64,000 nt of DNA, taken from NCBI RefSeq assembly GCF_041381155.1, contig NC_091134.1, forward strand, positions 6,128,255 through 6,192,254. Reading direction: 5' to 3'. The DNA comes from Argopecten irradians. Taxonomy: Eukaryota; Mollusca; Bivalvia; Pectinida; Pectinidae. Below the pieces are notes generated by a model that was given only the letters and a program-made list of their open reading frames with translations, ran no database searches and was not told where the DNA came from. The position numbers were made by a program, and so were the translations under genes. Below are positions 31,501 to 56,998 of this stretch, piece after piece (the first letter of the stretch is position 1; the number at the start of each line of letters is the position of its first letter).

Positions 31501-34500
31501 CCCTGTGACCTTGAATAAAGGTCAAGGTCATTCATTTGAACAAACTTGGTAGCCCTTTATCCCAGCATGCTACAGGCCAAATATCAGTACCCTGGGCCTT
31601 TAGGTTATTGAGAAGAAGTCGTTTGAATGAAAAGTTTACGCACGGCGCACGACGACGGACGGCGCAGATGACCTTAAAATAATTCTGACAGCTTTTTCAA
31701 ACTTTTTCATTCCCATCTCAGTTTCTGAAGGTAGCAATTTGATTACATCATTTTCAAAGGTCACCCCTGATGGGATGTTGTCAGATCTGTATTTCAATCA
31801 GATTGTGTTTTAACTAGGAAACTAATTTAGTTAGTCATCCCTGGTGACCATTTGGTATGATTTACCTTTGCATATATCTGTTCTTTGGCACCAACATCAC
31901 AAGACATGTAAGAACACTTGGTACCAAGGCTTCGCACATCAGCTGCTGTCTTCTCCAGAGAGGCCAACTCTCTACCCCATAGCACAATCTAACAAATTAT
32001 TGAAATACCCTTATTTTTTTTTATAGCTTACTACTTTTAAGTGTATTAGCTATATTTAAACATGTTATTTTTGCAAAAATATTAACTTTAAACATTTCAT
32101 TGTGGTCCGATAGGTTTTTCAGATTAAGGTAATATAATATACATGATTTTAGAAAACATGAAAATCAATTCATATATTCAAAATCTGGAAATGTATTTTC
32201 TTTTATTGATATAATGTTAAAATATATTTTTTCTTCTCAAAAATTAAACCAACTAAAAAATATTGAAATATTATAAACATAACATCTAAAACTAAGGAGA
32301 ATAAAGACCCCTAGGCACATAAATGTATACAGGCGTACATCTGTTGATCATACTGATGAAGCTGACAATCTCTCTTGTCTAATATACAGCAGCTGTGGTT
32401 CTGTTCTGACAGTGTTTATAATAATGTATACTTTTAATCATATACAACTATCATTTAAACCGAAATATAGTTCATATGATGCACATTTACATTCTGTTGT
32501 AAAAGACTTTAAACAAGAGGCCCAGAGGGCCTGTATCGCTCACCTGGTTTGTAATGCCAAGTAATGTTCTAAATACAGGTTCATTGTTTCTTTTCTGAAG
32601 GAATTCGAATATTTACCTCTAATTCTCCTATTGGGCCCCATCCCTCCTGCCCCCGGGGGGTCAGAGCCAAAATTTATACAAGTTCTGTTTCCCTTCCCCG
32701 ATGGATGTTTGTGGCTAAATTTGGTTACAATCCATGCAGAACTCTAGGACAAGTAGCGATTTATAGGATTTACCTCTAATTCCCCTATTGGGCCCCATCC
32801 CTCCTGCCCCCGGGGGGTCAGAGCCAAAATTTATACAAGTTCTGTTCCCCTTCCCCTATGGATGTTTGTGGCCAAATTTGGTTACAATCCATGCAGAACT
32901 CTAGGACAAGCAGCGATTTATAGGAATTACCTCTATTTCCCCTATTGGGCCGCGCGCCCCTTCTGCCCCCGAGTGGTCAGAGCCAAAATTTATACAAGTT
33001 CTGTTCCCCTTCCACAAAGGATGTTTGTGGCAACATTTGGTTACAATTCATGTCGAACTCTAGGACAAGTAGCGATTTATAGGATTTACCTTTATTTGCC
33101 CTTTTGGGCCCTGCCCCTCCTACCCCCGGGGGGGTTAGAGCCAAAATTTATACAAGTTCTGTTCCCCTTCTCCCAAGGGTGTTTGTGGCCAAATTTGGTT
33201 ACAATCCATGCAGAACTCTAGGACAAGTAGCGATTTAAAGGAAATGTTGACGGACGGACGAGGGACGCACGGACGGACGACGGACGCCGCGCCATGACAT
33301 AAACTCACCAGCCCTTCGAATTCGAGCCAGGTGAGCTAAAAATGCTACTTGAAGTTGAAAGATGTAATAATAAGCTGACGCTGAAGACATATGAAAAGGG
33401 TACATTATGTATGTGCATGGAATACAGATCTTGTGTCAAGATTTTTGTAACTTTCTTTTTCGAAATCAAATAATGCTGGCTCAAACATATCAAGTACCCT
33501 TGAAGGACCAATATTCGTCAGGGTAATCAAATCTTCCGTATACCAGTATCAACAAACCAGAAAGAAATAAAATGTACCAATTTTATCAACACAAATATAT
33601 AATATTTTGTCTTACTTGTACAACAGGTTGTCTATCAATTCGTTATTTATTTATCGCGATACGGAAGATTTCTACCTGCCGTTGGCTCAGTGATGGCCAA
33701 CACAATAGGGACCTATTTTCGTCAGGGGTGCTGTTTCGCTTATTATGAAAATCGAGATCATTCCAAATAAATGATGAGCAGAAGGCACTTGTGAGATCGG
33801 GTTTAAGCTGAAAATTTCCTATAGTTACATCGTTATTTATTTATCACGATACTGAAGATTTCTAACAGCCGGTCGCTGGGTGATGGCCAACACAATAGGG
33901 ACCTATTTTCGTCAGGGGTGCTGTTTCGCTTATTATGAAAATTGAGATCATTCCAAATAAATGATGAGCAGAAGGCACTTGTAAGATCGGGTTTAAGCTG
34001 AAAATTTCCTATAGTTACATTGATTTTAAATCTTTAAACCTATTGGTCATGGAAAGTGGCGAAAACCTCTGTTTACATAAAATAACTTTTATGTTTTCAA
34101 CAGTACCGCACCAAAAATTTCGGGTAAGTTGAATCGCCAAAATAATTTGTAATAACCCAAAATCTGGGCTATGAATCACATGATCAGACACGTGACTTCC
34201 GGTACTTTGTTGACATTCTGCTGATCAGTGCACATGGACAGTCAAACGCTGACGGTAGGGTTTTAAAGTTTCATTTAAAATACCTTCATTTTGGGGTATA
34301 TTGCTACATCGTTTTTATAAAATCACTTGGTTATAGCACACAATCTTTTTTAAGCAAGACAAATTTTCCTTTTAAATCAAATCTGATTTGGCAGACGACA
34401 CTCCTTATGAAATCACGCGATAGTTCATGAGATATAAGCAAAATTGAAAACATGACGAAAACAGGTCCCTGACGAATTAAGGGCACTTGACCATAGCTGT

Positions 34501-35291: not shown

Positions 35292-38200
35292 ATGGATCAA
35301 GAAAAGTATTGTTTCAACTGTCTCTTGCATTGTATTCCGTTCAAATTAGATACCATAATCTATCATAATGCTAAGCAGAGGTTTTGGAAACCATGCATAT
35401 ATTTTGTTATCCTACATTCTCCAGGTTCTTATATTTCAGTATGCTACCGGCCAGTTACTCTATCAACATCGATATTATAATCACATATATATATTTTGCT
35501 TCATCACAATGCCGGATGCTATATATTTTTGCTGAAGTTATCTTCAATTTTATATTGATTGACAATACTAGAAAAAGAAAAGAAAAAAAATACAAGGCTT
35601 AAAAGTTTCTCAACGTTATACATGTACATCTTTTAATATTGGAGAATAATTTTAGTATGCACAGTTGCATTAGTGTTGGTAGGCCTATTCCATTTAAAAA
35701 TAATTATTGTGATGTTTTATATATATAAACTTTAGGATTTACCTGGACTACAATGCAACAACTCCATTGGAACCTGATGTTCTTGGGGCAATTTCTACAG
35801 CACTGTCGGACGCCTGGGGTAACCCAAGTAGTTCCCATGAGGCCGGTAATTTATCAGATAGATTCAGATGTTAAATTGGATTTCTTAAAATTGGTTATGT
35901 AATTCTAAGAAGCCATATAAAAGTGATTTACAATTATTTCAATAAAAGAAAAAAGAAAGAAAAGGGAAAAAATGTGCTAGATCACCATTAATTTGAAATA
36001 ATTGTTTGCATGACAGATGTTGTCAAAATTATTTCATATTGAAACTGCCTTTTTCGAGTTTTTCAGTTGATATGAATTGTGGATTTGACATTTAAAATGC
36101 TTAAAGATGCCTTGATCTGATTTGAATCACCTCTATTGAAGGTGTGAAGGCCAAAGCGGTGATAGATGGTGCGAGGAGCAATGTGGCTGCCATGATTGGG
36201 GCCAAATCATCAGGTAAAATATTCAACATTTATTCAATATTTAAAAATGGAACAGATATAGAACATTATTTACTATGGCCATAGGAAAATATTTTTTTCT
36301 CACAAAAATTCAAAGTTATTTCAAAACATCAAAATTACAAATCCTAGTTAAGAAGTGTACCAGTAAGAGTGTACAGCTATATTAAAGATACTAGTTCACC
36401 AAGGGATCCTACAAATCAAACAATTGGAGAGAAGATACTGTATAGGTGGTTGGACCAAAAACAAGGAAAATTCAATTTTAGGGAATCAAAATTTTTTCAA
36501 TTTTGCTTCAAGGGTATACATAAGTCAACCAATTCTTCTTATTTTAATGATTAAGATTTCACGGTCTTGCATGTCATGACTTGTGAAATCGTAAAAATAT
36601 CATCTGCACGATAATAGCCAGTTATATGGTATCTCTATAGCCAAGCTGTACATACATATATTACAACTTGTATTCACTAGAGTTATCTGTTAATCAAATA
36701 CGTCTTTGTTGATTAAAGAATAAAACATTATATCAACAACTATAATTATATCAACAACAGTTAGTTAATCAGATATATTATGTTGGTTTAGTCAGATATT
36801 CTTTTCACATCAGGAGGAACAGAGGTAAGTAATCATGGTTTAGTATGAAGTCTGTGTACTACTACATCAAGAGGAACAGAGGTAAGTAATCATGGTTTAG
36901 TATGAAGTCTGTGTACTACTACACCAAGAGGAACAGAGGTAAGTAATCATGGTTTAGTATGAAGTCTGTGTACTACTACACTAAGAGGAACAGAGGTAAG
37001 TAATCATGGTTTAGTATGAAGTCTGTGTACTACTACATCAAGAGGAACAGAGGTAAGTAATCATGGTTTAGTATGAAGTCTGTGTATTGCTACACTAAGA
37101 GGAACAGAGGTAAGTAATCATGGTTTAGTATGAAGTCTGTGTACTACTACACTAAGAGGAACAGAGGTAAGTAATCATGGTTTAGTATGAAGTCTGTGTA
37201 CTACTACACTAAGAGGAACAGAGGTAAGTAATCATGGTTTAGTATGAAGTCTGTGTACTACTACACTAAGAGGAACAGAGGTAAGTAATCATGGTTTAGT
37301 ATGAAGTCTGTGTCTTACTACATCAAGAGGAACAGAGGTAAGTAATCATGGTTTAGTATGAAGTCTGTGTACTACTACACTAAGAGGAACAGAGGTAAGT
37401 AATCATGGTTTAGTATGAAGTCTGTGTACTACTACACTAAGAGGAACAGAGGTAAGTAATCATGGTTTAGTATGAAGTCTGTGTACTACTACACTAAGAG
37501 GAACAGAGGTAAGTAATCATGGTTTAGTATGAAGTCTGTGTACTACTACACTAAGAGGAACAGAGGTAAGTAATCATGGTTTAGTATGAAGTCTGTGTAC
37601 TACTACACTAAGAGGAACAGAGGTAAGTAATCATGGTTTAGTATGAAGTCTGTGTACTACTACACTAAGAGGAACAGAGGTAAGTAATCATGGTTTAGTA
37701 TGAAGTCTGTGTCTACTACACAAGAGGAACAGAGTAAGTAATCATGGTTTAGTATGAAGTCTGTGTCTACTACACTAAGAGGAACAGAGGTAAGTAATCA
37801 TGGTTTAGTATGAAGTCTGTGTACTACTACACTAAGAGGAACAGAGTAAGTAATCATGGTTTAGTATGAAGTCTGTGTACTACTACACTAAGAGGAACAG
37901 AGGTAAGTAATCATGGTTTAGTATGAAGTCTGTGTACTACTACACTAAGAGGAACAGAGGTAAGTAATCATGGTTTAGTATGAAGTCTGTGTACTACTAC
38001 ACTAAGAGGAACAGAGGTAAGTAATCATGGTTTAGTATGAAGTCTGTGTACTACTACACTAAGAGGAACAGAGGTAAGTAATCATGGTTTAGTATGAAGT
38101 CTGTGTACTACTACACTAAGAGGAACAGAGGTAAGTAATCATGGTTTAGTATGAAGTCTGTGTACTACTACACTAAGAGGAACAGAGGTAAGTAATCATG

Positions 38201-41200
38201 GTTAGTATGAAGTCTGTGTACTACTACACTAAGAGGAACAGAGGTAAGTAATCATGGTTTAGTATGAAGTCTGTGTACTACTACACTAAGAGGAACAGAG
38301 GTAAGTAATCATGGTTTAGTATGAAGTCTGTGTACTACTACACTAAGAGGAACAGAGGTAAGTAATCATGGTTTAGTATGAAGTCTGTGTACTACTACAC
38401 TAAGAGGAACAGAGGTAAGTAATCATGGTTTAGTATGAAGTCTGTGTACTACTACACTAAGAGGAACAGAGGTAAGTAATCATGGTTTAGTATGAAGCTG
38501 TGTACTACTATACTAAGAGGAACAGAGGTAAGTAATCATGGTTTAGTATGAAGTCTGTGTACTACTACACTAAGAGGAACAGAGGTAAGTAATCATGGTT
38601 TAGTATGAAGTCTGTGTACTACTACACTAAGAGGAACAGAGGTAAGTAATCATGGTTTAGTATACTGTGTACTACTACACTAAGAGGAACAGAGGAAGAG
38701 TAATCATGGTTTAGTATGAAGTCTGTGTACTACTACACTAAGAGGAACAGAGGTAAGTAATCATGGTTTAGTATGAAGTCTGTGTACTACTACACTAAGA
38801 GGAACAGAGGTAAGTAATCATGGTTTAGTATGAAGTCTGTGTACTACTACACTAAGAGGAACAGAGGTAAGTAATCATGGTTTAGTATGAAGTCTGTGTA
38901 CTACTACACTAAGAGGAACAGAGGTAAGTAATCATGGTTTAGTATGAAGTCTGTGTACTACTACACTAAGAGGAACAGAGTAAGTAATCATATTTAGTAT
39001 GAAATCTGACTGTTGTTACTGTGTACTACTACACTAAGAGGAACAGAGGTAAGTAATCATGGTTTAGTATGAAGTCTGTGTACTACTACACTAAGAGGAA
39101 CAGAGGTAAGTAATCATGGTTAAGTATGAAGACTGTGTACTACTACACCAAGAGGAACAGAGATAAGTAATCATGATTTAGTATGAAGTCTGTGTGCTAC
39201 ACTACACTAAGAGGAACAGAGGTAAGTAATCATGGTTTAGTATGAAGACTGTGTACTACTACACACCTAAGAGGAACAGAGGATAAGTAATCATGATTTA
39301 GTATGAAGTCTGTGTACTACTATACACTAAGAGGAACAGAGGTAAGTAATCATGGTTTAGTATGAAGACTGTGTACTACTACACTAAGAGGAACAGAGAT
39401 AAGTAATCATGGTTTAGTATGAAGTCTGTGTACTACTACACTAAGAGGAACAGAGGTAAGTATAGTTAGTAGAAGCTGTGTACTACTACACTAAGAGGTA
39501 AGTAATCATGGTTTAGTATGAAGTCTGTGTACTACTACACTAAGAGGAACAGAGGTAAGTAATCATGGTTTAGTATGAAGTCTGTGTACTACTACACTAA
39601 GAGGAACAGAGGTAAGTAATCATGGTTTTAGTATGAAGTCTGTGTACTACTACACTAAGAGGAACAGAGGTAAGTAATCATGGTTTAGTATGAAGACTGT
39701 GTACTACTACACTAAGAGGAACAGAGGTAAGTAATCATGGTTTAGTATGAAGACTGTGTACTACTACACTAAGAGGAACAGAGGTAAGTAATCATGGTTT
39801 AGTATGAAGTCTGTGTACTACTACACTAAGAGGAACAGAGGTAAGTAATCATGGTTTAGTATGAAGTCTGTGTACTACTACACTAAGAGGAACAGAGGTA
39901 AGTAATCATGGTTTAGTATGAAGACTGTGTACTACTACACTAAGAGGAACAGAGGTAAGTAATCATGGTTTAGTATGAAGACTGTGTACTACTACACTAA
40001 GAGGAACAGAGGTAAGTAATCATGGTTTAGTATGAAGTCTGTGTACTACTACACTAAGAGGAACAGAGGTAAGTAATCATGGTTTAGTATGAAGTCTGTG
40101 TACTACTACACTAAGAGGAACAGAGGTAAGTAATCATGGTTTAGTATGAAGTCTGTGTACTACTACACTAAGAGGAACAGAGGTAAGTAATCATGGTTTA
40201 GTATGAAGACTGTGTACTACTACACCAAGAGGAACAGAACAGGTAAGTAATCATGGAGTATGAAGAATCTGTGTACTACTACACCAAGAGGAACAGAGGT
40301 AAGTAATCATGGTTTAGTATGAAGTCTGTGTACTACTACACTAAGAGGAACAGAGGTAAGTAATCATGGTTTAGTATGAAGACTGTGTACTACTACATCA
40401 AGAGGAACAGAGGTAAGTAATCATGGTTTAGTATGAAGACTGTGTACTACTACACTAAGAGGAACAGAGGTAAGTAATCATGGTTTAGTATGAAGCTGTG
40501 TACTACTACACTAAGAGGAACAGAGGTAAGTAATCATGGTTTAGTATGAAGTCTGTGTGCTACTACTACTAACACTGAAGACTGTGAACAGAGGTAAGTA
40601 ATCATGGTTTAGTATGAAGTCTGTGTACTACTACACTAAGAGGAACAGAGGTAAGTAATCATGGTTTAGTATGAAGACTGTGTACTACTACACTAAGAGG
40701 AACAGAGGTAAGTAATCATGGTTTAGTATGAAGTCTGTGTACTACTACACTAAGAGGAACAGAGGTAAGTAATCATGGTTTAGTATGAAGACTGTGTACT
40801 ACTACACCAAGAGGAACAGAGGTAAGTAATCATGGTTTCGTATGAAGACTGTGTACTACTACACTAAGAGGAACAGAGGTAAGTAATCATGGTTTAGTAT
40901 GAAGTCTGTGTCTACTACACTAAGAGGAACAGAGGTAAGTAATCATGGTTTAGTATGAAGTCTGTGTACTACTACACTAAGAGGAACAGAGGTAAGTAAT
41001 CATGGTTTAGTATGAAGTCTGTGTACTACTACACTAAGAGGAACAGAGGTAAGTAATCATGGTTTAGTATGAAGTCTGTGTACTACTACACTAAGAGGAA
41101 CAGAGGTAAGTAATCATGGTTTAGTATGAAGTCTGTGTACTACTACACTAAGAGGAACAGAGAGTAAGTAATCATGGTTTGTATGAAGTCTGTGTACTAC

Positions 41201-44200
41201 TATACTAAGAGGAACAGAGGTAAGTAATCATGGTTAAGTATGAAGACTGTGTACTACTACACTAAGAGGAACAGAGGTAAGTAATCATGGTTTAGTATGA
41301 AGTCTGTGTACTACTACACTAAGAGGAACAGAGGTAAGTAATCATGGTTTAGTATGAAGACTGTGTACTACTACTACACTAAGAGGAACAGAGGTAAGTA
41401 ATCATGGTTTAGTATGAAGACTGTGTACTACTACACTAAGAGGAACAGAGGTAAGTAATCATGGTTTAGTATGAAGACTGTGTACTACTACACTAAGAGG
41501 AACAGAGGTAAGTAATCATGGTTTAGTATGAAGTCTGTGTACTACTACACTAAGAGGAACAGAGGTAAGTAATCATGGTTTAGTATGAAGTCTGTGTACT
41601 ACTACACTAAGAGGAACAGAGGTAAGTAATCATGGTTTAGTATGAAGACTGTGTACTACTACACTAAGAGGAACAGAGGTAAGTAATCATGGTTTAGTAT
41701 GAAGACTGTGTACTACTACACTAAGAGGAACAGAGGTAAGTAATCAGTAATACATGGTTTAGTATGAAGTCTGTGTACTACTACACTAAGAGGAACAGAG
41801 GTAAGTAATCATGGTTTAGTATGAACTGTGTACTACTACACTAAGAGGAACAGAGGTAAGTAATCATGGTTTAGTATGAAGACTGTGTACTACTACACTA
41901 AGAGGAACAGAGGTAAGTAATCATGGTTTAGTATGAAGACTGTGTACTACTACACTAAGAGGAACAGAGGTAAGTAATCATGGTTTAGTATGAAGTCTGT
42001 GTACTACTACACCAAGAGGAACAGAGGTAAGTAATCATGGTTAAGTATGAAGTCTGTGTACTACTACACAAGAGGAACAGAGGTAAGTAATCATGGTTTA
42101 GTATGAAGTCTGTGTACTACTACACTAAGAGGAACAGAGGTAAGTAATCATGGTTTAGTATGAAGTCTGTGTACTACTACATCAAGAGGAACAGAGGTAA
42201 GTAATCATGGTCTCGTATGAAGACTGTGTACTACTACACTAAGAGGAACAGAGATAAGTAATCATGGTTTAGTATGAAGTCTGTGTCTTACTACATCAAG
42301 AGGAACAGAGGTAAGTAATCATGGTTTTGTATGAAGACTGTGTGCTACTACATCAAGAAGAACAGAGGTAAGTAATCATGGTCTCGTATGAAGACTGTGT
42401 ACTACTACACTAAGAGGAACAGAGGTAAGTAATCATGGTTTAGTATGAAGTCTGTGTGCTACTACACTAAGAGGAACAGAGGTAAGTAATCATGGTTTAG
42501 TATGAAGTCTGTGTACTACTACACTAAGAGGAACAGAGGTAAGTAATCATGGTTTAGTATGAAGTCTGTGTGCTACTACACTAAGAGGAACAGAGGTAAG
42601 TAATCATGGTTTAGTATGAAGTCTGTGTACTACTACACTAAGAGGAACAGAGGTAAGTAATCATGGTTTAGTATGAAGTCTGTGTACTACTACACTAAGA
42701 GGAACAGAGGTAAGTAATCATGGTTTAGTATGAAGTCTGTGTCTACTACACTAAGAGGAACAGAGGTAAGTAATCATGGTTTAGTATGAAGTCTGTGTAC
42801 TACTACACTAAGAGGAACAGAGGTAAGTAATCATGGTTTAGTATGAAGTCTGTGTGTACTACTACACTAAGAGGAACAGAGGTAAGTAATCATGGTTTAG
42901 TATGAAGTCTGTGTACTACTACACTAAGAGGAACAGAGGTAAGTAATATCATGGTTTAGTATGAAGTCTGTGTTACTACTACACTAAGAGGAACAGAGGT
43001 AAGTAATCATGGTTTAGTATGAAGTCTGTGTACTACTACACTAAGAGGAACAGAGGTAAGTAATCATGGTTTAGTATGAAGTCTGTGTACTACTACACTA
43101 AGAGGAACAGAGGTAAGTAATCATGGTTTAGTATGAAGTCTGTGTACTACTACACTAAGAGGAACAGAGGTAAGTAATCATGGTTTAGTATGAAGTCTGT
43201 GTACTACTACACTAAGAGGAACAGAGGTAAGTAATCATGGTTTAGTATGAAGTCTGTGTACTACTACACTAAGAGGAACAGAGGTAAGTAATCATGGTTT
43301 AGTATGAAGTCTGTGTACTACTACACTAAGAGGAACAGAGGTAAGTAATCATGGTTTAGTATGAAGTCTGTGTGCTACTACACTAAGAGGAACAGAGGTA
43401 AGTAATCATGGTTTAGTATGAAGTCTGTGTACTACTACACTAAGAGGAACAGAGGTAAGTAATCATGGTTTAGTATGAAGTCTGTGTACTACTACACTAA
43501 GAGGAACAGAGGTAAGTAATCATGGTTTAGTATGAAGTCTGTGTACTCTACACTAAGAGGAACAGAGGTAAGTAATCATGGTTTAGTATGAAGTCTGTGT
43601 ACTACTACACTAAGAGGAACAGAGTAAGTAATCATGGTTTAGTATGAAGTCTGTGTACTACTACACTAAGAGGAACAGAGGTAAGTAATCATGGTTTAGT
43701 ATGAGTCTGTGTACTGCTACACTAAGAGGAACAGACGTAAGTAATCATGGTTTCGTATGAAGTCTGTGTACTACTACACTAAGAGGAACAGAGGTAAGTA
43801 ATCATGGTTTAGTATGAAGACTGTGTACTACTACACTAAGAGGAACAGAGGTAAGTAATCATGGTTTAGTATGAAGTCTGTGTACTACTACACTAAGAGG
43901 AACAGAGGTAAGTAATCATGGTTTAGTATGAAGTCTGTGTACTACTTCACTAAGAGGAACAGAGGTAAGTAATCATGGTTTAGTAGATGTCTGTGTACTG
44001 CTACACTAAGAGGAAAAGAGGTAAGTAATCATGGTTAAGTATGAAGTCTGTGTACTGCTACACTTTAGTATGAGGTCTGTACTACTCCTACTACACAATA
44101 CTCCATGGTTTAGTATGAGGTCTGTGCTACTCCTACTACACAATACTCCATAGTTTAGTATGAGGTCTGTACTACTCCTACTACACAAGACTCCATCGTT

Positions 44201-47200
44201 TAGTATGAGGTCTGTGTGCTACTCCTACTACACAAGACTCCATGGTTTAGTATGAGGTCTGTGTGCTACTCCTACTACACAAGACTCCATGGTTTAATAT
44301 GAGGTCTCTGTACTACTCCTACTACACAAGACTCCATGGTTTAGTATGAGGTCTGTGCTACTCCTACTACACAAGACTCCATGGTGTAGTATAAGGTCTG
44401 TGTGCTACTCCTACTACACAAGACTCCATGGTTTAGTATGAGGTCTGTGTGCTACTCCTTCTACACAAGACTCCATGGTTTAGTATGAGGTCTGTGTGCT
44501 ACTACTACTACACAAGACTCCATGGTTTAGTATGAGGTCTGTGTGCTACTCCTACTACACAAGACTCCATGGTTAAGTATGAGGTCTGTGTGCTACTACT
44601 ACTACACAAGACTCCATGGTTTAGTATGATGTCTCTGTGCTACTCCTACTACTACACAAGACTCCATGGTTTAGTATGAGGTCTGTGTGCTACTCCTACG
44701 ACACAAGACTCCATGGTTTAGTATGAGGTCTGTGTGCTACTCCTACTACACAAGACTCCATGGTTTAGTATGATGTCTCTGTGCTACTCCTACTACACAA
44801 GACTCCATGGTTTAGTATGAGGTCTGTGTGCTACTCCTACTACACAAGACTCCATGGTTTAGTATGAGGTCTGTGTGCTACTACTACTACACAAGACTCC
44901 ATGGTTTAGTATGATGTCTCTGTGCTACTCCTACTACACAAGACTCCATGGTTTAGTATGAGGTCTGTGTGCTACTCCTACTACACAAGACTCCATGGTT
45001 TAGTATGAGGTCTGTGTGCTACTCCTACTACACAAGACTCCATGGTTTAGTATGAGGTCTGTGTGCTACTCCTACTACACAAGACTCCATGGTTTAGTAT
45101 GAGGTCTGTGCTACTCCTACTACACAAGACTCCATGGTTTAGTATGAAGTCTGTGTGCTACTCCTACTACACAAGACTCCATGGTTTAGTATGAGGTCTG
45201 TGTGCTACTCCTACTACACAAGACTCCATGGTTTAGTATGAGGTCTGTGTGCTACTCCTACTACACAAGACTCCATGGTTTAGTATGAGGTCTGTGCTAC
45301 TCCTACTACACAAGACTCCATGGTTTAGTATGAGGTCTGTGTGCTACTCCTACTACACAAGACTCCATGGTTTAGTATGAGGTCTGTGCTACTCCTACTA
45401 CACAAGAATCCATGGTTTTGTATGAGGTCTGTGCCATGGTTTAGTATGAGGTCTGTGTGCTATTACACAAGACTCCATGGTTAAGAATGAAGTCGAACAA
45501 GTGTCACCACGAACCTACCTCAGGGTCACTATTGTGAGGCTGTCTTTGGAGAGGGGGATGGGGGGTGTTGGTGGCAGTCAGGCACAAGCCATATTGGTCA
45601 GTGCTTTATATATTTGTAATTCCATTTTGTAGAGACCCTATATTGATGAATCTGATGAATCATAATTTACCAAACCAGATATTCTGACAATATATAATTA
45701 TTAAACCAAGTGAGAAATTCTACTTCTTATAAAATAAACCAAATACCGCTATCCATTTACTTGTTTAGTAACTTGACTGCTATATGGAGTTTTATCTCTT
45801 TTTTATTTAATTCTGCATTCATTCTTATACAACATATATTCTTTACTTCTGTTATGACAGGCAAACAATATGATCCTACAGACAGCTCTTAAACACTTCC
45901 ACCTCTGTCATGAAATCACGAATGGGACTGACAGTAGGGGAGATAACTCTGACCAGCTGCCACACTTCATTACATCCAATATGGAGCATGACTCGGTGAA
46001 GCTTGTTCTGGAGAACTTGGCTGAGGAAGGAATAGCTAGTGTGTATTATCATAGTCATCCTCAAAAACTACTGCAACTTTAGACTTAGTGCCATAATAAT
46101 ACTCAAACAGCCTTTTTAACCCAATGTAAAATATAAAAGTTTAATGCTATATTATCCTCATACAGTGGACCCTCGATAATCCAGACACCTTGGTTCCCAG
46201 CCTAAACCGTCCAGATTACGAGTTTTCCGGACTGCCGAATGCCGTGTTCTTAGTCAATTAAATTGTCACGTACGAGTTACTCCCCTTGACCTTGTAATCG
46301 ATGGTAGGCTTTTATGTAACATACGTGTATTATAATTAATACTTTGCTTGTTATGTTTTATATGTATTCTTATATCATTACGTTAAGAATAATAAATAAA
46401 CGTATTTCTTTTTCAAAATACGAAACATTTATAGCCATCATTAATTGTGTACTATGTATGCATATAACTACGTATCCCACTCTTGATCTGTCGTACGGCA
46501 AATTGCCTAACCAAGGATCAATATCATCTACGTTCTTGGCATAAAAAAACTATGATAACAAATAGTTGTGAACATTTGATGAACTCATATGATTGTTATT
46601 TTGTATAATGTGTGTTTTTTATAACCATTTCCACAAGTCTTTGTTTTCTGACTTACAGACGTGTGAAACAACCACGCGCCCGTTCACGTCTAACTTCGTG
46701 CACAATGTCACACACGTGTAAATGGCATGTGCAGTAGCCTTTATATCTTATACCACAGACGATGAATTCGAATAGATTCACATACATTTAAAATTCTTAT
46801 TAATTTTGTGAGTATTATCTCACTTTATTGTATCTGATACTCATAGCGATATATTCTGCATGCGAAACAAGTAAGGTATCTACAACATACGTACCCGTAC
46901 TCAAACTCAAACTGCATGTTTAAAAGCGTGTGGTTAAAAATATATTGCGTATCTGAAGTTTGATCTCCTATAGAAAACCAATGAACCGTTACATGACTGC
47001 ATGTACCCGTGTGAAAGGTGTTCAGGTAAACGCCCCTGGCTATGACCTGGCAGCCGTTGTTATGACAACACACACTAACTAGTGTTATTTAGCAGTGTGT
47101 ATTTTACACATGACTAGCTGACCTTGGATTTTCTCGGCACGTGGCGACAACAAATTGTCCGGATTATTGCGGGAATTTATTAACGTAAATTACATTCCGT

Positions 47201-50200
47201 TCCCAAAATGGAGTTCCGGATTCGGAATACGAATTTCCGGACAAGTGAGTATAAATAACGTTACGGAAATCCGTTCCCTGACATTTCCGTCCGGATTGTG
47301 AGTTTTCCGGACTATCGGCGTCCGGATTATCGCGGGTCCACTGTACATGTATATAAATTAACATTTTCACTGTAACCTCTCTATGTAATCTCACAAAATG
47401 CTGTTGGTGTTTTTTAGCATATGAACTACCATCTACTTATTTTGACGTAATTATCATTGTGACAGAAATGTTGAAGAACTGGTTACCATAACTTTACATT
47501 TACTAACAACACAAAACAGTCCAGAAAATTTGTAATTCAGACGGTTTAGGATTATCAAGGGTACATTGTACTTCTGTAGATAATTTTGATGTTCATTTTA
47601 CAGGTGTAACATTTGTACCTGCCTCTCAGAAAACTGGTTGTGTTATGAAGGAGGATGTGATAGCTGCTGTCCGTCCATCCACATGTATGATAACTATAAT
47701 GTTGGCTAACAATGAGACAGGCGTAATACAGGTAAACATCTCATTTCCCCCACATCTCAGCTGTGTAGTAATACAGGTAAACATCTCATCTCCTGTACAT
47801 CTCAGCTGTGTAGTAATACAGGTAAACATCTCATCTCCTGTACATTTCAGCTGTGTATTAATACAGGTAAACATCTCATCTCCTGTACATTTCAGCTGTG
47901 TAGTAATACAGGTAAACTCATCTCCTGTACATTTCAGCTGTGTAGTAATACAGGTAAACATCTCATCTCCTGTACATCTCAGCTGTGTAGTAATACAGGT
48001 AAACATCTCATCTTCTGTACATCTCAGCTGTGTAGTAATACAGGTAAACATCTCATCTTCTGTACATCTCAGCTGTGTAGTAATACAGGTAAACATCTCA
48101 TCTCCTGTACATTTCAGCTGTGTAGTAATACAGGTAAACATCTCATCTCCTGTACATCTCAGCTGTGTAGTAATACAGGTAAACATCTCATCTCCTGTAC
48201 ATCTCAGCTGTGTAGTAATACAGGTAAACATCTCATCTTCTGTACATCTCAGCTGTGTAGTAATACAGGTAAACATATCATCTTCTCTACATCTCAGCTG
48301 TGTAGTAATACAGGTAAACATATCATTTTCCCCACATCTCAGCTGTGTAGTAATACAGGTAAACATCTCATCTCCTGTACATCTCAGCTGTGTAGTAATA
48401 CAGGTAAACATCTCATTTCCCCTACATCTCAGCTGTGTAGTAATACAGGTAAACATTTCATCTCCTGTACATCTTAGCTGTGTAGTAATACAGGTCAACA
48501 TCTCATCTCCTGTACATCTCAGCTGTGTAGTAATACAGGTAAATATCTCATCTCCTGTACATCTCAGCTGTGTAGTAATACAGGTAAACATCTCATCTCC
48601 TGTACATCTCAGCTGTGTAGTAATACAGGTAAACATCTCATCTCCTGTACATCTCAGCTGTGTAGTAATACAGGTAAACATCTCATTTCCCCCACATCTC
48701 AGCTGTGTAGTAATACAGGTAAACATTTCATCTCCTGTACATCTCAGCTGTGTAGTAATATAGGTAAACATCTCATCTCCTGTACATCTCAGCTGTGTAG
48801 TAATACAGGTAAACATATCATCTTCTGTACATCTCGGCTGTGTAGTAATACAGGTAAACATATCATCTTCTGTACATCTCAGCTGTGTAGTAATACAGGT
48901 AAACATCTCATCTTCTGTACATCTCAGCTGTGTAGTAATACACGTAAACATATCATCTCCTGTACATCTCAGCTGTGTAGTAATACAGGTAAACATCTCA
49001 TCTCCTGTACATCTCAGCTGTGTAGTAATACAGGTAAACATCTCATCTCCTGTACATCTCAGCTGTGTAGTAATACAGGTAAACATCTCATCTCCTGTAC
49101 ATCTCAGCTGTGTAGTAATACAGGTAAACATCTCATCTCCTGTACATCTCAGCTGTGTAGTAATACAGGTAAACATCTCATCTTCTGTACATCTCAGCTG
49201 TGTAGTAATACAGGTAAACATCTCATCTCCTGTACATCTCAGCTGTGTAGTAATACAGGTAAACATCTCATCTCCTGTACATCTCAGCTGTGTAGTAATA
49301 CAGGTAAACATCTCATCTCCTGTACACCTCAGCTGTGTATTGATACATGTAAACATCTCATCTCCTGTACATCTCGGCTGTGTAGTAATACAGGTAAACA
49401 TCTCATCTCCCATACAACTGAGCTTTACTAAGACAGGTGTAATACAGGTAAACATCTCATCTCCTGTACATCTCAGCTGTGTAGTAATACAGGTAAACAT
49501 CTCATCTCCCATACAACTCAGCTTTACTAAGACAGGTGTAATACAGGTAAACATTTCATCTCCTGTACTTCTCAGCTTTACTAACACAGGTGTAATACAG
49601 GTAAACATTTCATCTCCTGTACATCTCAGCTTTACTAAGACAGGTGTAATACAGGTAAACATTTCATCTCCTGTACATCTCAGCTTTACTAACACAGGTG
49701 TAATACAGGTAAACATTTCATCTCCTGTACATCTCAGCTTTACTAACACAGGTGTAATACAGGTAAACATTTCATCTCATGTACATCTCAGCTTTACTAA
49801 GACAGGTGTAATACAGGTAAACATTTCATCTCCTGTACATCTCAGCTTTACTAACACAGGTGTAATACAGATAAACATTTCATCTCCTGTACATCTCAGC
49901 TTTACTAAGACAGGTGTAATACAGGTAAACATTTCATCTCCTGTACTTCTCAGCTTTACTAAGACAGGTGTAATACAGGTAAACATTTCATCTCCTGTAC
50001 ATCTCAGCTTTACTAAGACAGGTGTAATACAGGTAAACATTTCATCTCCTGTACATCTCAGCTGTACTAAGACAGGTGTAATACAGGTAAACATTTCATC
50101 TCCTGTACATCTCAGCTTTACTAAGACAGGTGTAATACAGGTAAACATTTCATCTCCTGTACATCTCAGCTTTACTAAGACAGGTGTAATACAGGTAAAC

Positions 50201-53200
50201 ATTTCATCTCCTGTACATCTCAGCTTTACTAAGACAGGTGTAATACAGGTAAACATTTCATCTCCTGTACATCTCAGCTGTACTAAGACAGGTGTAATAC
50301 AGGTAAACATTTCATCTCCTTTACATCTCAGCTTTACTAACACAGGTGTAATACAGGTAAACATCTCTTCTCTTGTACATCTCAGCTGTACTAAGACAGG
50401 TGTAATAAAGGAAATCATATCTCATCTCCTGTACATCTCAGCTGTGTAGTATAGTACTGATGCTTATGTTTTTGCAAAGTTTTTCTGCTATGTCAGTCTA
50501 TTTAAAGCCATAACCTCTATTACTGTGAACATTAAATTAATGTGTTAAACTTTAAGAAACAAAATGATCATCATTCTTCATTTGCTATCCATCATCCAAT
50601 TTTCACTGTCAACTTTTCACTATTCAAACCTCCATTTCCATCAATGAGATTGAGCTGACACTGAGACAGTCTTTATCAATTAATGTTATTCTTTTGAATT
50701 GGTCAGAAATCAAAGGTGGAAACTCATATCTTAAATTCTAAATTTTCATTTTTTGCTGAACAAAAGTAGGGATGTAAATGAAGAGCTGCCAATAAAGGTT
50801 TTGTTATTTCTTGGCCTCAAAATCAGCTTTCCATCATTGACCCTTTTGTCAATATATATACATAAAATCCTACTACCAGTTAGGAATTACGTTACCTAGT
50901 TATTGTATCCGAGACAAAAGCTAATATATCATGTGAAAACATTTGTTAGTGACTGATTTTATAATTTGTTTCCAGCCGATAAAAGAAATATTTGAGAGTA
51001 TCCGTCATATCAATGCGAGTCGGAGGAACATGCCACGTATCCTACTACACACGGATGCAGCCCAGGCCATTGGTAAGATTGAGGTGGATGTCGTGGAGCT
51101 AGACGTGGACTATCTCACCATAGTTGGCCATAAGGTAACTACCGCCCATTCTGGCTGTTCAGTTGGTATGTCTGCAATCTGATTAAAATCCAGATCCTTA
51201 TTATCACTATGACTGATTAGAGGATCTGACAACATCCCATTAGGGGTCACGTCCAGATGACTTTTGGAAATGGCCAATCAAATTGGCACTGCCAAAATCT
51301 TGACTGGGGACGAAACAGTTTGAAAAAGCTGTCCAAATTATTTTCATGTACATGTACAATGTACCTAGTCATCTCTCCCAAAGAGCAAAATAAAGCAGAA
51401 TATATATTTATACTGTGACGAAATGGGGTTATCAATTGATGTAGCAATGTATAGAAAATGCATGTGATCTGTAATGTTCATACAATCTGTGGTAAGTTTC
51501 AGGTTGTAGCTGGTTGCACGTTCAATGACTTGACGTAGTATTTTGTCATGTTCCTCAATATTCTTTCCTGCGATAAGAATGTCATCGACTATTGCGAACG
51601 CGCCGTTTATTCCTTCAACCATAGTGTCCATGATCTTCTTGTAAATCTCTGGAGCGGACTTGATTCCGAATGGTAGACGTAACCAACGATAACGCCCTAT
51701 AGGTGTGTTGAAAGTTGTGAGATAAGATGACGCCTCATCCAGTTGTATTTGAAGGAAGCCTGATTTTGCATCCAGAACTGAGAATATCTTGGCATCAGGG
51801 ATGTCTGTAATGACCTCGTCAATAGTTTTCATAGGGTGGTGTTGTCACAGTATGGCCCTATTAAGATCCTGTGGGTCTATACATATGCGGATCTTGTCTC
51901 CTCTCACATTGACTACCATTGAACTGACCCATTCAGTCAGCTTGTCGACTCGGGTAATGTAACCATTTTCCTCCATTTCCCTTAGCTTTTCAATAGCTTT
52001 GGGCTTAATGGCAGCTGGAAGTTTACGTGCTGGGTGTATGATTCCTGTCGCTGTTTTGTCAATAGATAGACTGTATGTACCTGGTAATGTCCCAGTAGTT
52101 TTGACTAAATCAGGTAATGTCCCAGTAGTTTTGACTAAATCAGGAAAGTCTCTAATAAGTTCATCCTCAGCAGGTGTTGAACATGAATTCTGACTTACTG
52201 AGTAAGTATTCAAGGGGTTTTCAGGTGCAGAGAGCAAGTTGAGTGCTATGGCTGAATCACCACTGATTATGTTCTCCTGCTCAATGTCAACAATCTCAAA
52301 GTCTGTTTCCCTTGTATGACTCCCATGTGACACATTTAGTCTAACTGCTCCAATAGGTTTAATTTTGTGGTTACTGAATGACTTCAGCATTCTATGAGAT
52401 TCGGCTATGTATACTTCTCCAGGCAGTTCTTCAACTTCTGTCCTTGTTAATATACTAACCCTTGCTCCAGTGCGAAACTTCACATCTTTCCCATTTATGT
52501 TCAAATGAGTGACCCATTTATCATCAACAGCCTTTATATCTGTAACAGTTGTACTGTTAATTGTCAATAGTTCATCTTCTGATACATCCTCACATGAGCT
52601 ATATCCAGGTTGTATGCTGTGTACTTTGTTTTTCATTGTTTTCCTACACATCTTTTTCCAGTGATCCTGACCTTTGCAATAATTACAGGTGGTTCCCTTG
52701 GCAGGACATTTGCCATAGTCATGAGTAAACCCACATTTCCCACAAGTGTTACTTGTCGACTTTGCCTTGTAGTTCTTGTTATGGTCATGCTGTACATGTG
52801 ATGTAGACGATTTGGATGTTTGTTTTGGTTTTGTTGTTGTGTAATTTCTCCTATTTTGTATTGAAGAATTTACTTTCAGAACTTCCTCACCTCTCATCAT
52901 TTTGACCTGTGCCTGTGAAAGCTCGAATTGCTGACCAATCTGTATAGCTTTATTGATAGTAATGTCCTGACCCTGGTCTAGCAACCTTTCTTGAACTTTC
53001 TTTTGCCTGACCCCGGCAATTATTAGGTCTATCAATACATCATTTGTATTTGTGTATTCACAATCCATGGCTAGAAGTTTCAGATCTTTGACAAAATTAT
53101 CAAATGTCTCTGTATCTGTCTGTTTTCTCTGATGTAGCTTGAAACGCGCAATTCTTTTATTTTTCTTGGGCCTAATGTACGCATCAAATTTGTCTAGAAT

Positions 53201-56200
53201 TTTATCTGGGTCATTTTTATCAGTGTCGTCTTCCCAAGTGAGTGTTTTGAACACTTCCCTACCTTCCTGGCCAATCCACATTCCGATCCATCCGGATTTA
53301 TCAGCAGCCTCTGATTTAGCGAGCGGGCCTTTGAAACAGAACTCCACGTGTTGTCTGAAGCGGAGAAATTCCTGATACTGATCTCCTGCTCCCCAATCCA
53401 AACGCGGTTGATCGAAGGCAATACCTGACATGATGGGTTCAAATCATCAATTTTCTGACACCATGTAATGTTCATACAATCTGTGGTAAGACAGACTGTT
53501 TCAGATTTAGACTGAACACCGACACATGTGTTTGTGCAGCCGACATGTTTTATTCAACTGTGCATATCATCAGGTTCACAGAGACGCTTTACATACATTT
53601 AGGTAAAGGGGAACAACTCGTGACACCTTATAATAGTTATACCATTACATTACATGATCTGAAGTACACATGGTAAAAAGGTCAATTGAACATGACCCTG
53701 TATGGGATGTTCGCAGATCCTCTATTTAACGAAGTGGTTATAAGGATCTGTATTTTAAAATCAGATTGGTATGTCTGAAAAATATTAAGTGTAAAATTCT
53801 TTCTATGCATATTTCAGAGTTATCTGTCCTTGATAGTAGGTATTTTCATATTGTGAATTCATTCTTTTCTGAGCGAAACTTTTATTTTCTCGAAGATAAT
53901 ATGGCTTTATGCTTACTATGTCATAATCAATACCTATTTCCTTGTAGTTAGATATTGATTATGACGGCTTTAGTTTGTGTTTGAATTTTGTTTGACTTTT
54001 CTCTTAATTTAATGATTCACACACAGGAACAAATGACGCAACAATCCATTCACCAAATTAGATAATAGTTCAAAACAGAAGGACAAATTAAGTATGTATC
54101 AATGTTAAATAAGAGTAAAAAAACTCCTTATTTTAGTTCTATGGCCCTCGTATTGGAGCTGTATATGTACAAAACCTGGGCAGTAAGGAGGTTCCCATGT
54201 ATCCAATGTTGTACGGAGGGGGACAGGAGAGGAACTTTAGGCCAGGGTATGTAGCTAAATGTTTATGAAAATAACAGAGAAAATGTGGTTAAACTGAGGT
54301 TTAAATCTCAAACTATCAACATAGGACACATGCTCTCCCCAATAGAGTTACATTGTCTTTACTCCACTTCTATCACTTTCTGCTGCACTTTATCAAACTC
54401 TACACTAGAAAAGAGAAATTGTAACCAGACTGTGTATTGGGTAAAAATTCTGAGTTTTTTTTCATTCAGAACTTGCATTTTGTTATCAGCGGTTTTTTCC
54501 CATTTCAGGACAGAAAACACTGGTATGATAGCAGGCCTGGGGAAGGTAGGTTGTACCATCCTTATTGGTTTTATAAAGAAATATTAAATGAAAATAATTT
54601 TTTAAAGAAATACCTATATCACTGTGTTGACTGTTTAAAGATGCTCCACTGCTGACAAATGGTATTTTTCCTCTATCAAAAGCAGCAGCAGATATCGCGA
54701 TGATCATTTTATATTATTTTTTTGTTAATTAGACATATGTATAGGTACATGGTTAAACACCAATTACTGTTCAGATGATGAGTGTCATTTATGCTCTGAC
54801 GGCGATGGAGCATTTTTAACCAAAACTCTTAATCAAAATCAGGACATCCAGTTGACCCTTGACTTAATTTTAGCAGTGTTGGAAGTCAATCATCATTTCT
54901 CAGAAATCTGAAGAGTAGAAATCTATAACAAATAGACATTAGACTCAAATTGAAGAGTCAAATCTGATTTCTGAGAGTCAAAAACATACTGTCAGGGGTC
55001 TACTGGATGCAATGAAAATATGTTATTTTTGATAGTAATATTTTGTGTTATAGGCAGCAGAATTAGTTACCCAGTATCTGGATAGCTACAGGAAACACAT
55101 GACGACAGTTAGAGATTACCTAGAAACTAGGCTCCAGGTACGATGTCTCTACAATAGGGCCACCTTCAGTTATTGTAGTACAAAACAGAGTTTTTACAAA
55201 TGGCATTCTTTTTTCTTTTACAAACTCTGATGAAGCCTTTTAGGAATTGTATCAAAATTAACAAATTGTTTTGATATCTAACAGCAAATTTGTTTGTCTG
55301 CTAAGTAAACAGAACCTTAGAAATAGGAATATTGTACCAGCTCTTGCCAGCTTAATAAATCTGTAAAAAATGTTATATTTTCAATTACAGATCATTTCTT
55401 TTAAACACTTTTACTGAGATTTTTTCGATATATAACTTTTAGTACTATATCGGCGAGTAAAACTTCACATGTGAATAACGAAGTAATAATGCGAAAACAT
55501 CATCTGAATTTAGTTTTGTCCACATATAAGTCGAACTGGTGTATAGGCTGCACTCCTGATTTTCAGGAGTCATGAATTAACTCCAAAAAATATGGTATAT
55601 GTGTAGCATTGTCCACTCAATAATATGATGATGAATATTTACAGAAATTTTGTTATTATGCTAAAATCACATTGGAGGTCTTATGGTTGTTACGCATGTA
55701 TGTACATAAAATGACTTATGTGTTCTTTAAAAACTGTTTGTTTGGTACCCTTTCATTGAAGGAGGTGTTTGGGGACAGAATACACATCAATGGCAAGTTT
55801 GCTACAAGTGAGAGACTGCCGAACACATGTAATGTTTCTGTCTTAGGAAACGGATTATTTGGTACGTATTCAGTCTATAGTCAGAAATCCTTTCTAGATA
55901 TACCGGTGCATCAGAAGAATTTCTGATGATTTAAGTTTACTTTACAAGTCAAGTCAATGTAATAGTGATCATTGTCCATTTTATAAGTCAAGATGTTTAG
56001 AACTGACATGTTGACTACCTGCTAATGAAAAAGAACCTTGACATATTCTCAAGGTCACATGATCATTAATTTAATATCAAACTATAATTGCATGTCTTAT
56101 GAATCCTTCTAAAGATGATAGCTAACAAAATTTGCATAAAGAAATGATGGGAATACTTATTAAAATTTGCTGATACTGTAGGTTAAGGTCAGGTGATTTA

Positions 56201-56998
56201 TGAAAAAGCTGAGAATCATCACGTTTCCAAAGAATGTGCATCAAATAGGTTTATTTAGTCTCTTGATAAAAGATAACATTGTTAGAAATTTTTGTTTACA
56301 AAATACAATTTACAAATCTAGTTTGCCTAGAATGCCCATATGTGCTCTTTTGGTACCTAGGTGCTTTTGCATTATTTAGAATATTTTGGTAAATGTTATC
56401 CACAGTTTTGAACTGACAATCTGTATAAGCTGTCTGGTATTAAACCATACCTGCTGTTGTAGGTCGTTGTTGATTTGACAATCTGTATTAGCCGTCTGTA
56501 TTAAATTATACCTGCTGTTGTAGGTCATATGGTGTTGACTCATTGTGATAGACTACAAGCCAGTGTGGGTGCAGCATGTCACGCTCAGAACAGGTCAGTA
56601 ACCTCAGCAGATTTTCTTTATGAAGTTCAAATATTGATCAGATTTTATGGGACCATATCCAATAATTATCATGTACTTTGAGATGTTTTTTGGTGTCATC
56701 CTATTCTTCCCCAAATTCTGCATTTAGTTTCCCTTTTTCACCTCACCATGAAACATGATATGTATTGGTAAGTGTCTCTTGGCATCATAGGTTTTTTGTC
56801 ATCTCCATCTTTTTTTCCAGACCATCCCATATCCTGTTGGCTATTGGAATTCCGGAATCAGTGGCGAGAAATGCTCTGAGGTTATCAGTGGGAAGGGAGA
56901 CAACTCTGTCTGATATTGACATTGTTATTGAGGACCTAAAGCAGTCTGTAGAGTTTATAGAACACGACTCGCACACCACCGAAGCTATAACGTGCTGA
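35292..56998 (+). CDS. SCLY: Selenocysteine lyase
   Basis: Twelve exons are firm: 35736-35845, 36142-36213, 36796-36824, 45861-46038, 47604-47731, 50976-51134, 54137-54246, 54509-54545, 55054-55137, 55762-55861, 56524-56593 and 56821-56998 (TGA). All phases agree. A tentative first exon, 35292-35380, fits in phase and gives 447 residues, close to vertebrate SCLY, but its donor (GAG|GTTTTG) is poor. Motifs in order are [38 protein letters not shown] (PLP pocket), GHK with PLP-Lys255, [29 protein letters not shown] with catalytic Cys384, and RLSVGR. SVGAACH and the long ERNFRPGTEN region favour SCLY over the mitochondrial desulfurase NFS1. The enzyme is cytosolic and PLP-dependent. It splits selenocysteine to alanine and selenide, recycling selenium for selenophosphate synthesis. 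Introns 4 and 6 begin with splice-donor minisatellites. Confidence 0.93.
36807..44060 (+). repeat. 57-bp minisatellite seeded on the SCLY exon 4 splice donor, about 125 copies
   Basis: The first unit starts inside the 29-bp exon 4 (ACATCAGGAGGAACAGAG) and continues into intron 4 (GTAAGTAATCATGG). Every following unit repeats AGAGGAACAGAG and GTAAGTAATCATGG, then TTTAGTATGAAGTCTGTG and TACTACTACACTA. Most copies keep an intact GAG|GTAAGT donor; a few have ATAAGT or lose one G. Single-base indels are scattered through the array, unlike the 45- and 63-bp arrays. Reading on from exon 4 meets TGA in the first unit, so use of a later donor would truncate the protein. Confidence 0.95.
44061..45490 (+). 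repeat. 47-bp minisatellite derived from the 57-bp unit, donor-less
   Basis: About 30 units have the form GGTTTAGTATGAGGTCTG, TGTGCTACTCCTACTACAC and AAGACTCCAT. The TTTAGTATGA(A/G)GTCTGTG half is shared with the 57-bp unit. The exon-derived AACAGAG and the GTAAGT donor are gone, replaced by AAGACTCCAT. The change of unit occurs between about 44045 and 44090. It lies at the 3' side of intron 4. Confidence 0.9.
45491..45860 (+). other. Unique remainder of SCLY intron 4
   Basis: A G-rich run (GAGAGGGGGATGGGGGGTG) lies near 45550. The rest is AT-rich and leads to the exon 5 acceptor (TTATGACAG at 45852-45860). No other feature was recognised. Confidence 0.5.
46163..47343. mobile_element. pogo/Tigger-like (Tc1/mariner) element, non-coding, in SCLY intron 5
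   Basis: The ends are CAGTGGACCCTCGATAATCC and its inverse GGATTATCGCGGGTCCACTG, flanked by TA on both sides (46161-46162 and 47344-47345). Inside, TCCGGA-rich inverted segments extend the terminal repeats. TA duplication and a CAGTGGACCC start are typical of pogo-group elements. No transposase frame is present. Confidence 0.82.
47714..50445 (+). repeat. 45/54-bp minisatellite seeded on the SCLY exon 6 splice donor, about 57 copies
   Basis: Exon 6 ends GAGACAGGCGTAATACAG and intron 6 begins GTAAACATCTCAT. The array repeats this junction. About 37 units of 45 bp carry GTAATACAG|GTAAACATC, then TCATCTCCTGTACATCTCAG and CTGTGTA. From about 49387 the units become 54 bp (about 19 copies) and keep more exon sequence (AGACAGGTGTAATACAG|GTAAAC). 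Each unit also has a pyrimidine-rich stretch ending CTCAG, like a splice acceptor. Unit length is almost constant and divisible by 3; one unit lost 3 bp. The exon frame stays open except for a TAG at 48761-48763. The antisense frame is also largely open by composition. Confidence 0.95.
51497..53431 (-). pseudogene. gag-pol remnant (gag, zinc knuckles, protease, partial RT)
   Basis: The first open stretch runs from 53431 to an in-frame TGA at 51845-51847 (528 codons). The same frame continues past the stop. Gag occupies about residues 1-225. Two CCHC-type zinc knuckles lie at about 230-262. A retropepsin-like region lies near 300-400; the position before TGA in its active-site motif is Arg320 rather than Asp, so it should be inactive. 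The RT start follows ([17 protein letters not shown]). After the stop come [21 protein letters not shown] and the IVDD catalytic box. A 30-bp tandem duplication at about 52080-52143 repeats the peptide [10 protein letters not shown]. It runs antisense to SCLY and is not a host gene. Confidence 0.85.
53464..53625 (-). repeat. 162-bp LTR of the Gypsy-type element
   Basis: It starts TGTCACGAG and ends AACATTACA, with the usual TG...CA ends. An AATAAA-like signal lies near its middle (minus strand GTTGAATAAAAC). The primer-binding site follows immediately. The other LTR survives only as its last 27 bp. Confidence 0.75.
54634..54819. mobile_element. MITE, copy 2 (TTTAAAGATGCTCC ends), in SCLY intron 9
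   Basis: The left end TTTAAAGATGCTCCACTGCT is matched by an inverted right end, read in reverse as TTAAAAATGCTCCATCGCC. It is a shorter relative of the element at 9692-10065 and shares the ATAAATGA and ATTGGTGTTTAA boxes. Confidence 0.7.

Follow-up and report, generated by a model that had tools for sequence, protein, structure and literature searches.

Arrays of splice donor copies open two introns of the selenocysteine lyase gene in the scallop Argopecten irradians

Results

Two introns of the selenocysteine lyase (SCLY) gene begin with minisatellites built from the gene's own 5' splice site

In a 64,000 nt stretch of the Argopecten irradians genome (called the window here; C1:6128255-6192254 of an assembly of 846 Mb in 1508 contigs) the gene for selenocysteine lyase, SCLY, carries two long minisatellites, one in intron 4 (array 1) and one in intron 6 (array 2). 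In both, the exon end, the donor and the start of the intron form one repeat unit, the exon supplies the first unit, and donor arrays of this kind are present at further exons in the genome. We consider it probable (about 0.83) that the SCLY arrays arose in place as minisatellites of the type known as mirages from amphioxus, that the gene works through the donor next to the exon, that the donor arrays are tolerated, and that the class also exists at other genes.

The SCLY exons were traced in the window by tblastn with the SCLY protein of Pecten maximus (Table 1). The first exon was not found in this tracing, and the exon numbers are carried on from the exon 4 of an initial annotation of the window. 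The joined exon peptides matched SCLY in PDB with an E value of 2.9e-105, and human and rat SCLY aligned across them. The nearest match was SCLY of Pecten maximus, 88% identical across 87% of the query length, followed by Ylistrum balloti (86%) and then by mussels and others. Two short exons scored weakly in tblastn when taken alone (E 0.030 and 0.013). Exon 4 is such a short piece (E 0.030), while the exon beginning at 45861 was aligned with E 3.9e-34 and gave, together with its flank, a single match in the genome search. The database protein of Pecten maximus runs contiguously across both array-bearing junctions (GGTE/ANN and GVIQ/PIKE). The initial annotation had placed the start of array 1 inside the 29-bp exon 4, and this is backed by the SCLY alignments of Pecten maximus, human and rat.

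Tandem Repeats Finder (TRF) called array 1 with a period of 57 bp, 127.0 copies and 93% matches. Wrap-around alignment gave about 128 units and a readable donor in 127 of these: GAGGTAAGT in 118, GA-GTAAGT in four, GAGATAAGT in three, and GAGGAAAGT and GACGTAAGT in one each. Splitting the array at an anchor proved biased and was replaced by this alignment; direct motif counts were kept and gave 115 uninterrupted copies of GAGGTAAGT (GAG/GTAAGT), in agreement with the claim of over a hundred near-equal donors. The remaining three of the 118 aligned donors presumably hold an insertion. A total of 63 of the 126 full units were identical to the consensus, and the donor sequence of the first unit is no better than those of the following hundred.

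The minisatellite as such was thus confirmed by TRF and by alignment. Its proposed extent of 36807..44060 with about 125 copies was about right, except for the end of the repeats, since a 47-bp relative of the unit continues to 45457 (array 1b). This relative lies on the acceptor side and does not contain a single GTAAGT; probably the donor was lost before a second amplification. Intron 4 comprises 9036 bp; arrays account for 8633 bp, and the remaining 403 bp adjoin the acceptor. That each unit repeats the exon end also held. The number of repeated exon bases, given as 12-15, did not: the consensus unit has 11 in common exactly, and units retaining ACATCAAG have 18 in common with one mismatch. 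This retention was seen in six of the 121 labelled units, three of them among the first ten past the exon.

A genome search with two array 1 units placed all matches (59/59) inside C1:6165065-6172318, that is, in array 1 only. The search passes over very common words, and its counts are lower bounds. Within these limits the 57-bp unit did not occur at other loci, as a dispersed satellite or transposon would, and it had the single location of a repeat of local origin; the search covered array 1. This result supported the proposal that array 1 derives from the exon end and 5' splice site of the gene itself.

Array 2 occupies the 5' part of intron 6; the 532 bp on the 3' side are unique sequence. 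TRF reported the array in two rows that overlap, one with a 45-bp period and 55.9 copies and one with a 54-bp period and 19.7 copies, and by alignment it consists of about 57 units, approximately 37 of 45 bp followed by approximately 20 of 54 bp. Exact CAGGTAAAC donors were counted 50 times. The 45-bp form of the unit contains 9 bases of exon 6, and the 54-bp form contains 16 with one change. Together the two arrays account for some 53% of the SCLY span as traced. The interpretation in the initial annotation, a minisatellite of the gene's own donor, was therefore supported in part and incomplete, as it had missed the exon 6 array and the other genes described below.

Table 1. Traced exons and arrays of the SCLY region (positions in the window)
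Feature	Position	Strand	Description
SCLY gene	35734..56995	+	selenocysteine lyase; 12 exons, e2-e13, tblastn with Pecten maximus SCLY protein on window
Exon 4	36796..36824	+	29 bp; donor GAG/GTAAGT
Array 1	36814..44064	+	57-bp unit, ~127 copies; exon end is first copy
Array 1b	44064..45457	+	47-bp donor-free relative of array 1 unit, ~29 copies
Non-array part of intron 4	45458..45860	+	includes 3' splice site; 403 bp
Exon 5	45861..46038	+	tblastn; ends set by reading
Exon 6	47604..47731	+	donor CAG/GTAAAC; tblastn; start set by reading
Array 2	47723..50443	+	45-bp units followed by 54-bp units; exon 6 end and donor GTAAAC in every unit
Non-array 3' part of intron 6	50444..50975	+	532 bp, unique sequence
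Exon 7	50976..51134	+	tblastn

Donor arrays are found at exons of other genes

We scanned the assembly for three donor motifs in succession. The unit of these counts is the triple and not the array, and the counts are weighted towards large arrays. For AGGTAAGT, 7320 triples were found with gaps of 14-44 (966 for the reversed motif), 8252 with gaps of 45-75 (1019 reversed), and 1802 with unequal gaps of 12-27 and 34-54 (428 reversed), so that triples were 4-8 times commoner for AGGTAAGT than for its reverse. For AGGTGAGT the unequal gaps gave 910 triples compared to 72. The single motifs differed far less, with 52563 against 45462 for AGGTAAGT (1.16-fold) and 27765 against 16647 for AGGTGAGT. 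Among the matches listed for unequal gaps there were at least six array places in the first 44 Mb for AGGTAAGT and at least 21 in about 328 Mb for AGGTGAGT. Scaled to the genome this corresponds to roughly 115 and 54 places, a crude estimate from two motifs and one spacing rule.

The starts of 27 arrays were then read in donor orientation. The sample comprised every distinct array among the matches listed, eight with AGGTAAGT and 21 with AGGTGAGT, minus two that were copies of others (L079 of L078 and L083 of L082); a long-spacing array at C1:3789185, also among the matches listed, lies outside this set. For L091 and L108 the sequence read ahead of the first donor was limited to about 115-145 bases. 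This sample and the comparison sets below were small and were judged by one reader who was not blinded. The array start was judged to be an exon end in 17 of the 27 cases (7/8 for AGGTAAGT and 10/19 for AGGTGAGT). Strong homology was found for three of these exons, namely to sepiapterin reductase (L037, E 2.1e-10), to a SNF2 helicase of the SMARCAD1 type (L049, E 1.5e-8) and to XPB (L084, E 7e-12). Homology was weak for a LIM domain (L068, Pfam E 0.011, which is under its cut-off, and PDB 0.022), a glucose transporter (L076, E 0.1) and perlecan (L047, E 0.21). The other 11 calls were made on an open frame alone (L010, L046, L067, L075, L077, L078, L082, L085, L087, L091 and L109). Most of the short exon peptides had no match in Pfam (E up to 0.1, once up to 1) or weak matches only, and for L087 no related PDB chain was found.

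Across the 17 arrays and the two SCLY arrays, the exon end contributed 5-49 bases to the unit and the intron 3-46 bases. The array L068 (C1:27402500-27404500) has a 52-bp unit with 49 bases in common with the exon end and only about 3 from the intron. Two donor arrays exist in duplicate, one as an inverted pair about 233 kb apart (C1:30128460 and C1:30361783; L078 and L079), the other as a direct pair about 37 kb apart (C1:71300327 and C1:71337480; L082 and L083). These pairs offer a chance for dating array growth.

Three sets served for comparison, and exons were rarer in all of them. Outside arrays, one of seven AGGTRAGT sites was judged to lie at an exon (L114, which looks like enolase; one-sided Fisher test against 17/27, 0.029); six of these sites were judged by eye and one, in the window, by script only. 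Six arrays of a permuted motif were taken as controls, and none of the five starts that were reached read as an exon (one-sided Fisher 0.015). For acceptors, seven arrays of the acceptor-like motif TTTTNCAG were among the matches listed on C1. Six of their 3' ends were read and none was at an exon (one-sided Fisher 0.007), although L103 showed an exon-like frame about 70 bases past the array. Of the arrays of the acceptor motif TTTTGCAG, one chosen example was read and the others were left. This array (L106, C15:14293580-14294400) adjoins a tetraspanin-like exon (Pfam E 1.5e-4 with a partly joined peptide, under its cut-off) and is the mirror case, which shows that acceptor-side arrays exist. 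Triples of TTTTGCAG numbered 82 against 820 for the reversed motif. Acceptor-side arrays seem to be rarer than donor-side arrays; the evidence for their scarcity is thin.

Discussion

The anatomy suggests a simple course of events. A short tandem duplication spanning the last exon bases, the 5' splice site and some intron sequence would have been the beginning, and unequal exchange or slippage would then have extended the repeat into the intron. In splicing, the next exon would be joined to the donor adjoining the authentic exon, and roughly a hundred other donors of equal sequence would be removed with the intron. SCLY would remain functional because the donor next to the exon is the one presumably joined to the next exon, and donor-side arrays would be tolerated because the extra donors can be ignored as long as the first is used. 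What singles out the first donor is its position beside the exon. If it is indeed used, the choice by nearness to the exon or by earliest synthesis must be very reliable. A scarcity of acceptor-side arrays would be expected if extra acceptors alter the message more readily.

Minisatellites across exon-intron boundaries are known. In amphioxus, so-called mirages are tandem repeats of 10-160 bp across such boundaries in Adh3, globin, TnC and PGBD5; they are said not to disturb regular splicing and to be unstable in length (PMC3087553, PMC3902484). The SCLY arrays are likewise minisatellite-like repeats whose unit combines exonic with intronic sequence from a single authentic boundary of a protein gene, and many of the amphioxus copies also carry AG/GT signals. 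In the human gene IFI6 (6-16, G1P3) a minisatellite gives multiple splice donors according to the passages that cite Turri 1995 (PMC4526556, PMC2572611), and there, too, repeat units supply splice donors of the gene. The claim that no such case had been described was thus not upheld, because the amphioxus mirages and the human IFI6 repeat are already of this kind. Two further candidates, the intron repeats of earthworm metallothionein (PMC12783039) and MSY2 in DDX3Y (PMC3039753), were rejected as parallels, as the parts of these papers that could be consulted describe no donor arrays.

As far as the searches reached, what is new is the scallop as host, the presence of two arrays within a single gene and the apparent bias towards donors. 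The literature found on mirages concerned amphioxus or lancelet genes only, and our literature searches found no report from a mollusc or bivalve. Unlike the cases from cephalochordates, the present ones are from a scallop, and the numbers of about 127 and 57 units contrast with six and three in two haplotypes of BflGb6 and with a 108-bp triplication in PGBD5. No comparable copy number was found in the portions of the mirage and IFI6 literature that we could consult. Judged from the same portions, the amphioxus cases, which among the globins include BflGb6 and BflGb9, also differ in that two donor-side arrays in one gene are not seen there, and in that the globins show both sides of the intron affected, whereas a donor-side excess is apparent here. 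IFI6 reportedly uses downstream repeat units as donors, whereas the SCLY arrays are known here from genomic sequence alone.

Several observations weigh against the view that the SCLY arrays are tolerated mirages of a widespread class. The use of the first donor in SCLY is itself an inference. Substitutions per site in array 1 were low in the exon part (0.002) and in the donor (0.005) against a value of 0.015, but deletions in the exon part were not fewer (0.0072 against 0.0063). Among six-base windows the donor held only rank 10 of 57 in array 1 and rank 20 of 45 in the 45-bp part of array 2. The donor copies are therefore not clearly under selection. In L037 and L067 the donor next to the exon is GTTAGT and later units have GTAAGT, so that the first donor seems to be weaker than its copies. 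A control motif made of the same letters in permuted order gave 1971 triples, and its reverse gave 4629, both in the thousands. How large the excess comes out therefore varies with the control (1.6 to 7.6 for the 7320 triples of AGGTAAGT across three control motifs), and we did not accept triple counts alone as proof. Triples of TTTTNCAG were not depleted either (1539 against 1031 reversed), so the comparison with acceptors hinges on the motif chosen.

The reading of array starts has weak points as well. No clear exon was found at ten of the 27 starts (L007, L080, L081, L088, L089, L090, L093, L094, L107 and L108, with L089 and L108 ambiguous). When exons were called by a mechanical rule (10 of 15 pyrimidines, YAG and an open frame), eight of the 27 donor arrays and one of the five control arrays passed, compared to 17.7% of 3471 GT sites in the window (P 0.09). 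This criterion was not sensitive enough: it missed exons supported by homology, namely SCLY exon 4, the XPB exon and the SNF2 exon, and 11 of the 17 exon calls therefore rest on the unblinded reading of translations.

These points leave some room for coincidence: in a genome rich in minisatellites some would start on a donor by chance, and the donor would have no role in their birth or survival. The 29 partly overlapping TRF rows of the window, the many triples of permuted motifs, the ten starts at which no exon was recognized and the P value of the mechanical criterion all fit this explanation. It fits less well with donor triples 4-13 fold above the reversed motif when single motifs are only 1.2-1.7 fold above it, and with exons at 17/27 array starts against 1/7 of non-array sites. 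Moreover, both SCLY introns with a TRF array of ten or more copies have this array beginning at the donor; the two-copy repeat at 52083 does not. We regard coincidence as unlikely, though it is the alternative that deserves the most attention.

The extra donors might instead be useful, by providing in-frame isoforms of exon 6 or as a long platform for the U1 small nuclear ribonucleoprotein that guards against premature polyadenylation or tunes splicing. The 115 and 50 exact donors would suit such roles, and downstream repeat units do act as donors in IFI6 transcripts (PMC4526556). In addition, reading on in frame from exon 6 is open over 23 units, up to a stop at 48761. This frame stays open because both unit lengths, 45 and 54, are divisible by three and no in-frame stop lies within the unit; copying one open unit predicts as much. 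The reverse strand of array 2 is likewise open (716 amino acids), and the open frame by itself therefore carries no meaning. An insert at this place would come after the conserved NNETG stretch, where five bivalve SCLY proteins have none. In array 1 the read-through meets TGA as the eighth codon past exon 4; the early stop had been noted before, but it does not come at once, as had been stated. A useful function of the extra donors is improbable on this evidence.

A gain of the introns themselves by tandem duplication of an exonic AGGT segment is highly improbable. A published duplication model requires a tandem duplication over the exon-intron boundary that copies the splice signals (PMC4974935), and in this model a new intron results from one duplication; it has been proposed for amphioxus globins (PMC3087553). 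Each SCLY intron has a separate unique 3' part with its own acceptor (403 and 532 bp), and the SCLY units consist mostly of intron sequence; hence the intron was probably present beforehand and was lengthened by many donor copies. Inflated copy number or misassembly is hardly to be expected either, since the units differ among each other and matching anatomy exists at unrelated loci, even though array copy number is known here from the assembly alone and the locus was found once in the genome search, hence with no second haplotype for comparison.

Tolerated arrays born in place thus remain our preferred explanation for SCLY. A wider view is tentative and in our judgment falls somewhat short of an even chance: minisatellites would arise preferentially at the 5' splice junction in this lineage of scallops, perhaps in hundreds of introns, acceptors would mostly be spared, and splicing would reliably settle on the first donor out of as many as about 120 equal ones. 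If the junction is such a birthplace, the genome would be a natural experiment on 5' splice site choice, and the bias would hint that duplications are promoted by transcription or U1 binding, or that selection lets only donor-side copies survive. A donor-over-acceptor bias, if upheld in a full census, would help to tell mutation from selection as the cause.

Work on how the spliceosome selects one of several equal 5' splice sites usually pits two or three of them against each other. In an enzyme gene, introns opening with their own donor in 50-115 exact copies would put the rules of proximity and of first come, first served to the test at a far larger scale. Mirages would also prove not to be peculiar to cephalochordates, and array-bearing introns will probably cause errors in gene prediction and in the mapping of short reads.

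Other features of the window

The Rfam scan of the window gave nothing at the gathering cut-offs. Inside an SCLY intron, open frames on the minus strand (51365-53443) presumably belong to a retroelement, as they appear by eye to have zinc-knuckle and reverse-transcriptase-like sequence. On the 3' side of SCLY a 63-bp minisatellite extends from 60095 to 64000 with 62 copies in the window and runs to the window end; its consensus lacks a donor of the AGGTAAGT type. A direct duplication of 2 kb or more (19819-22427 and 24375-26480) contains near-identical open frames 4.05-4.56 kb apart. TRF also reported arrays of near-identical 145-bp units at two places (2993-4307 and 29292-31624).

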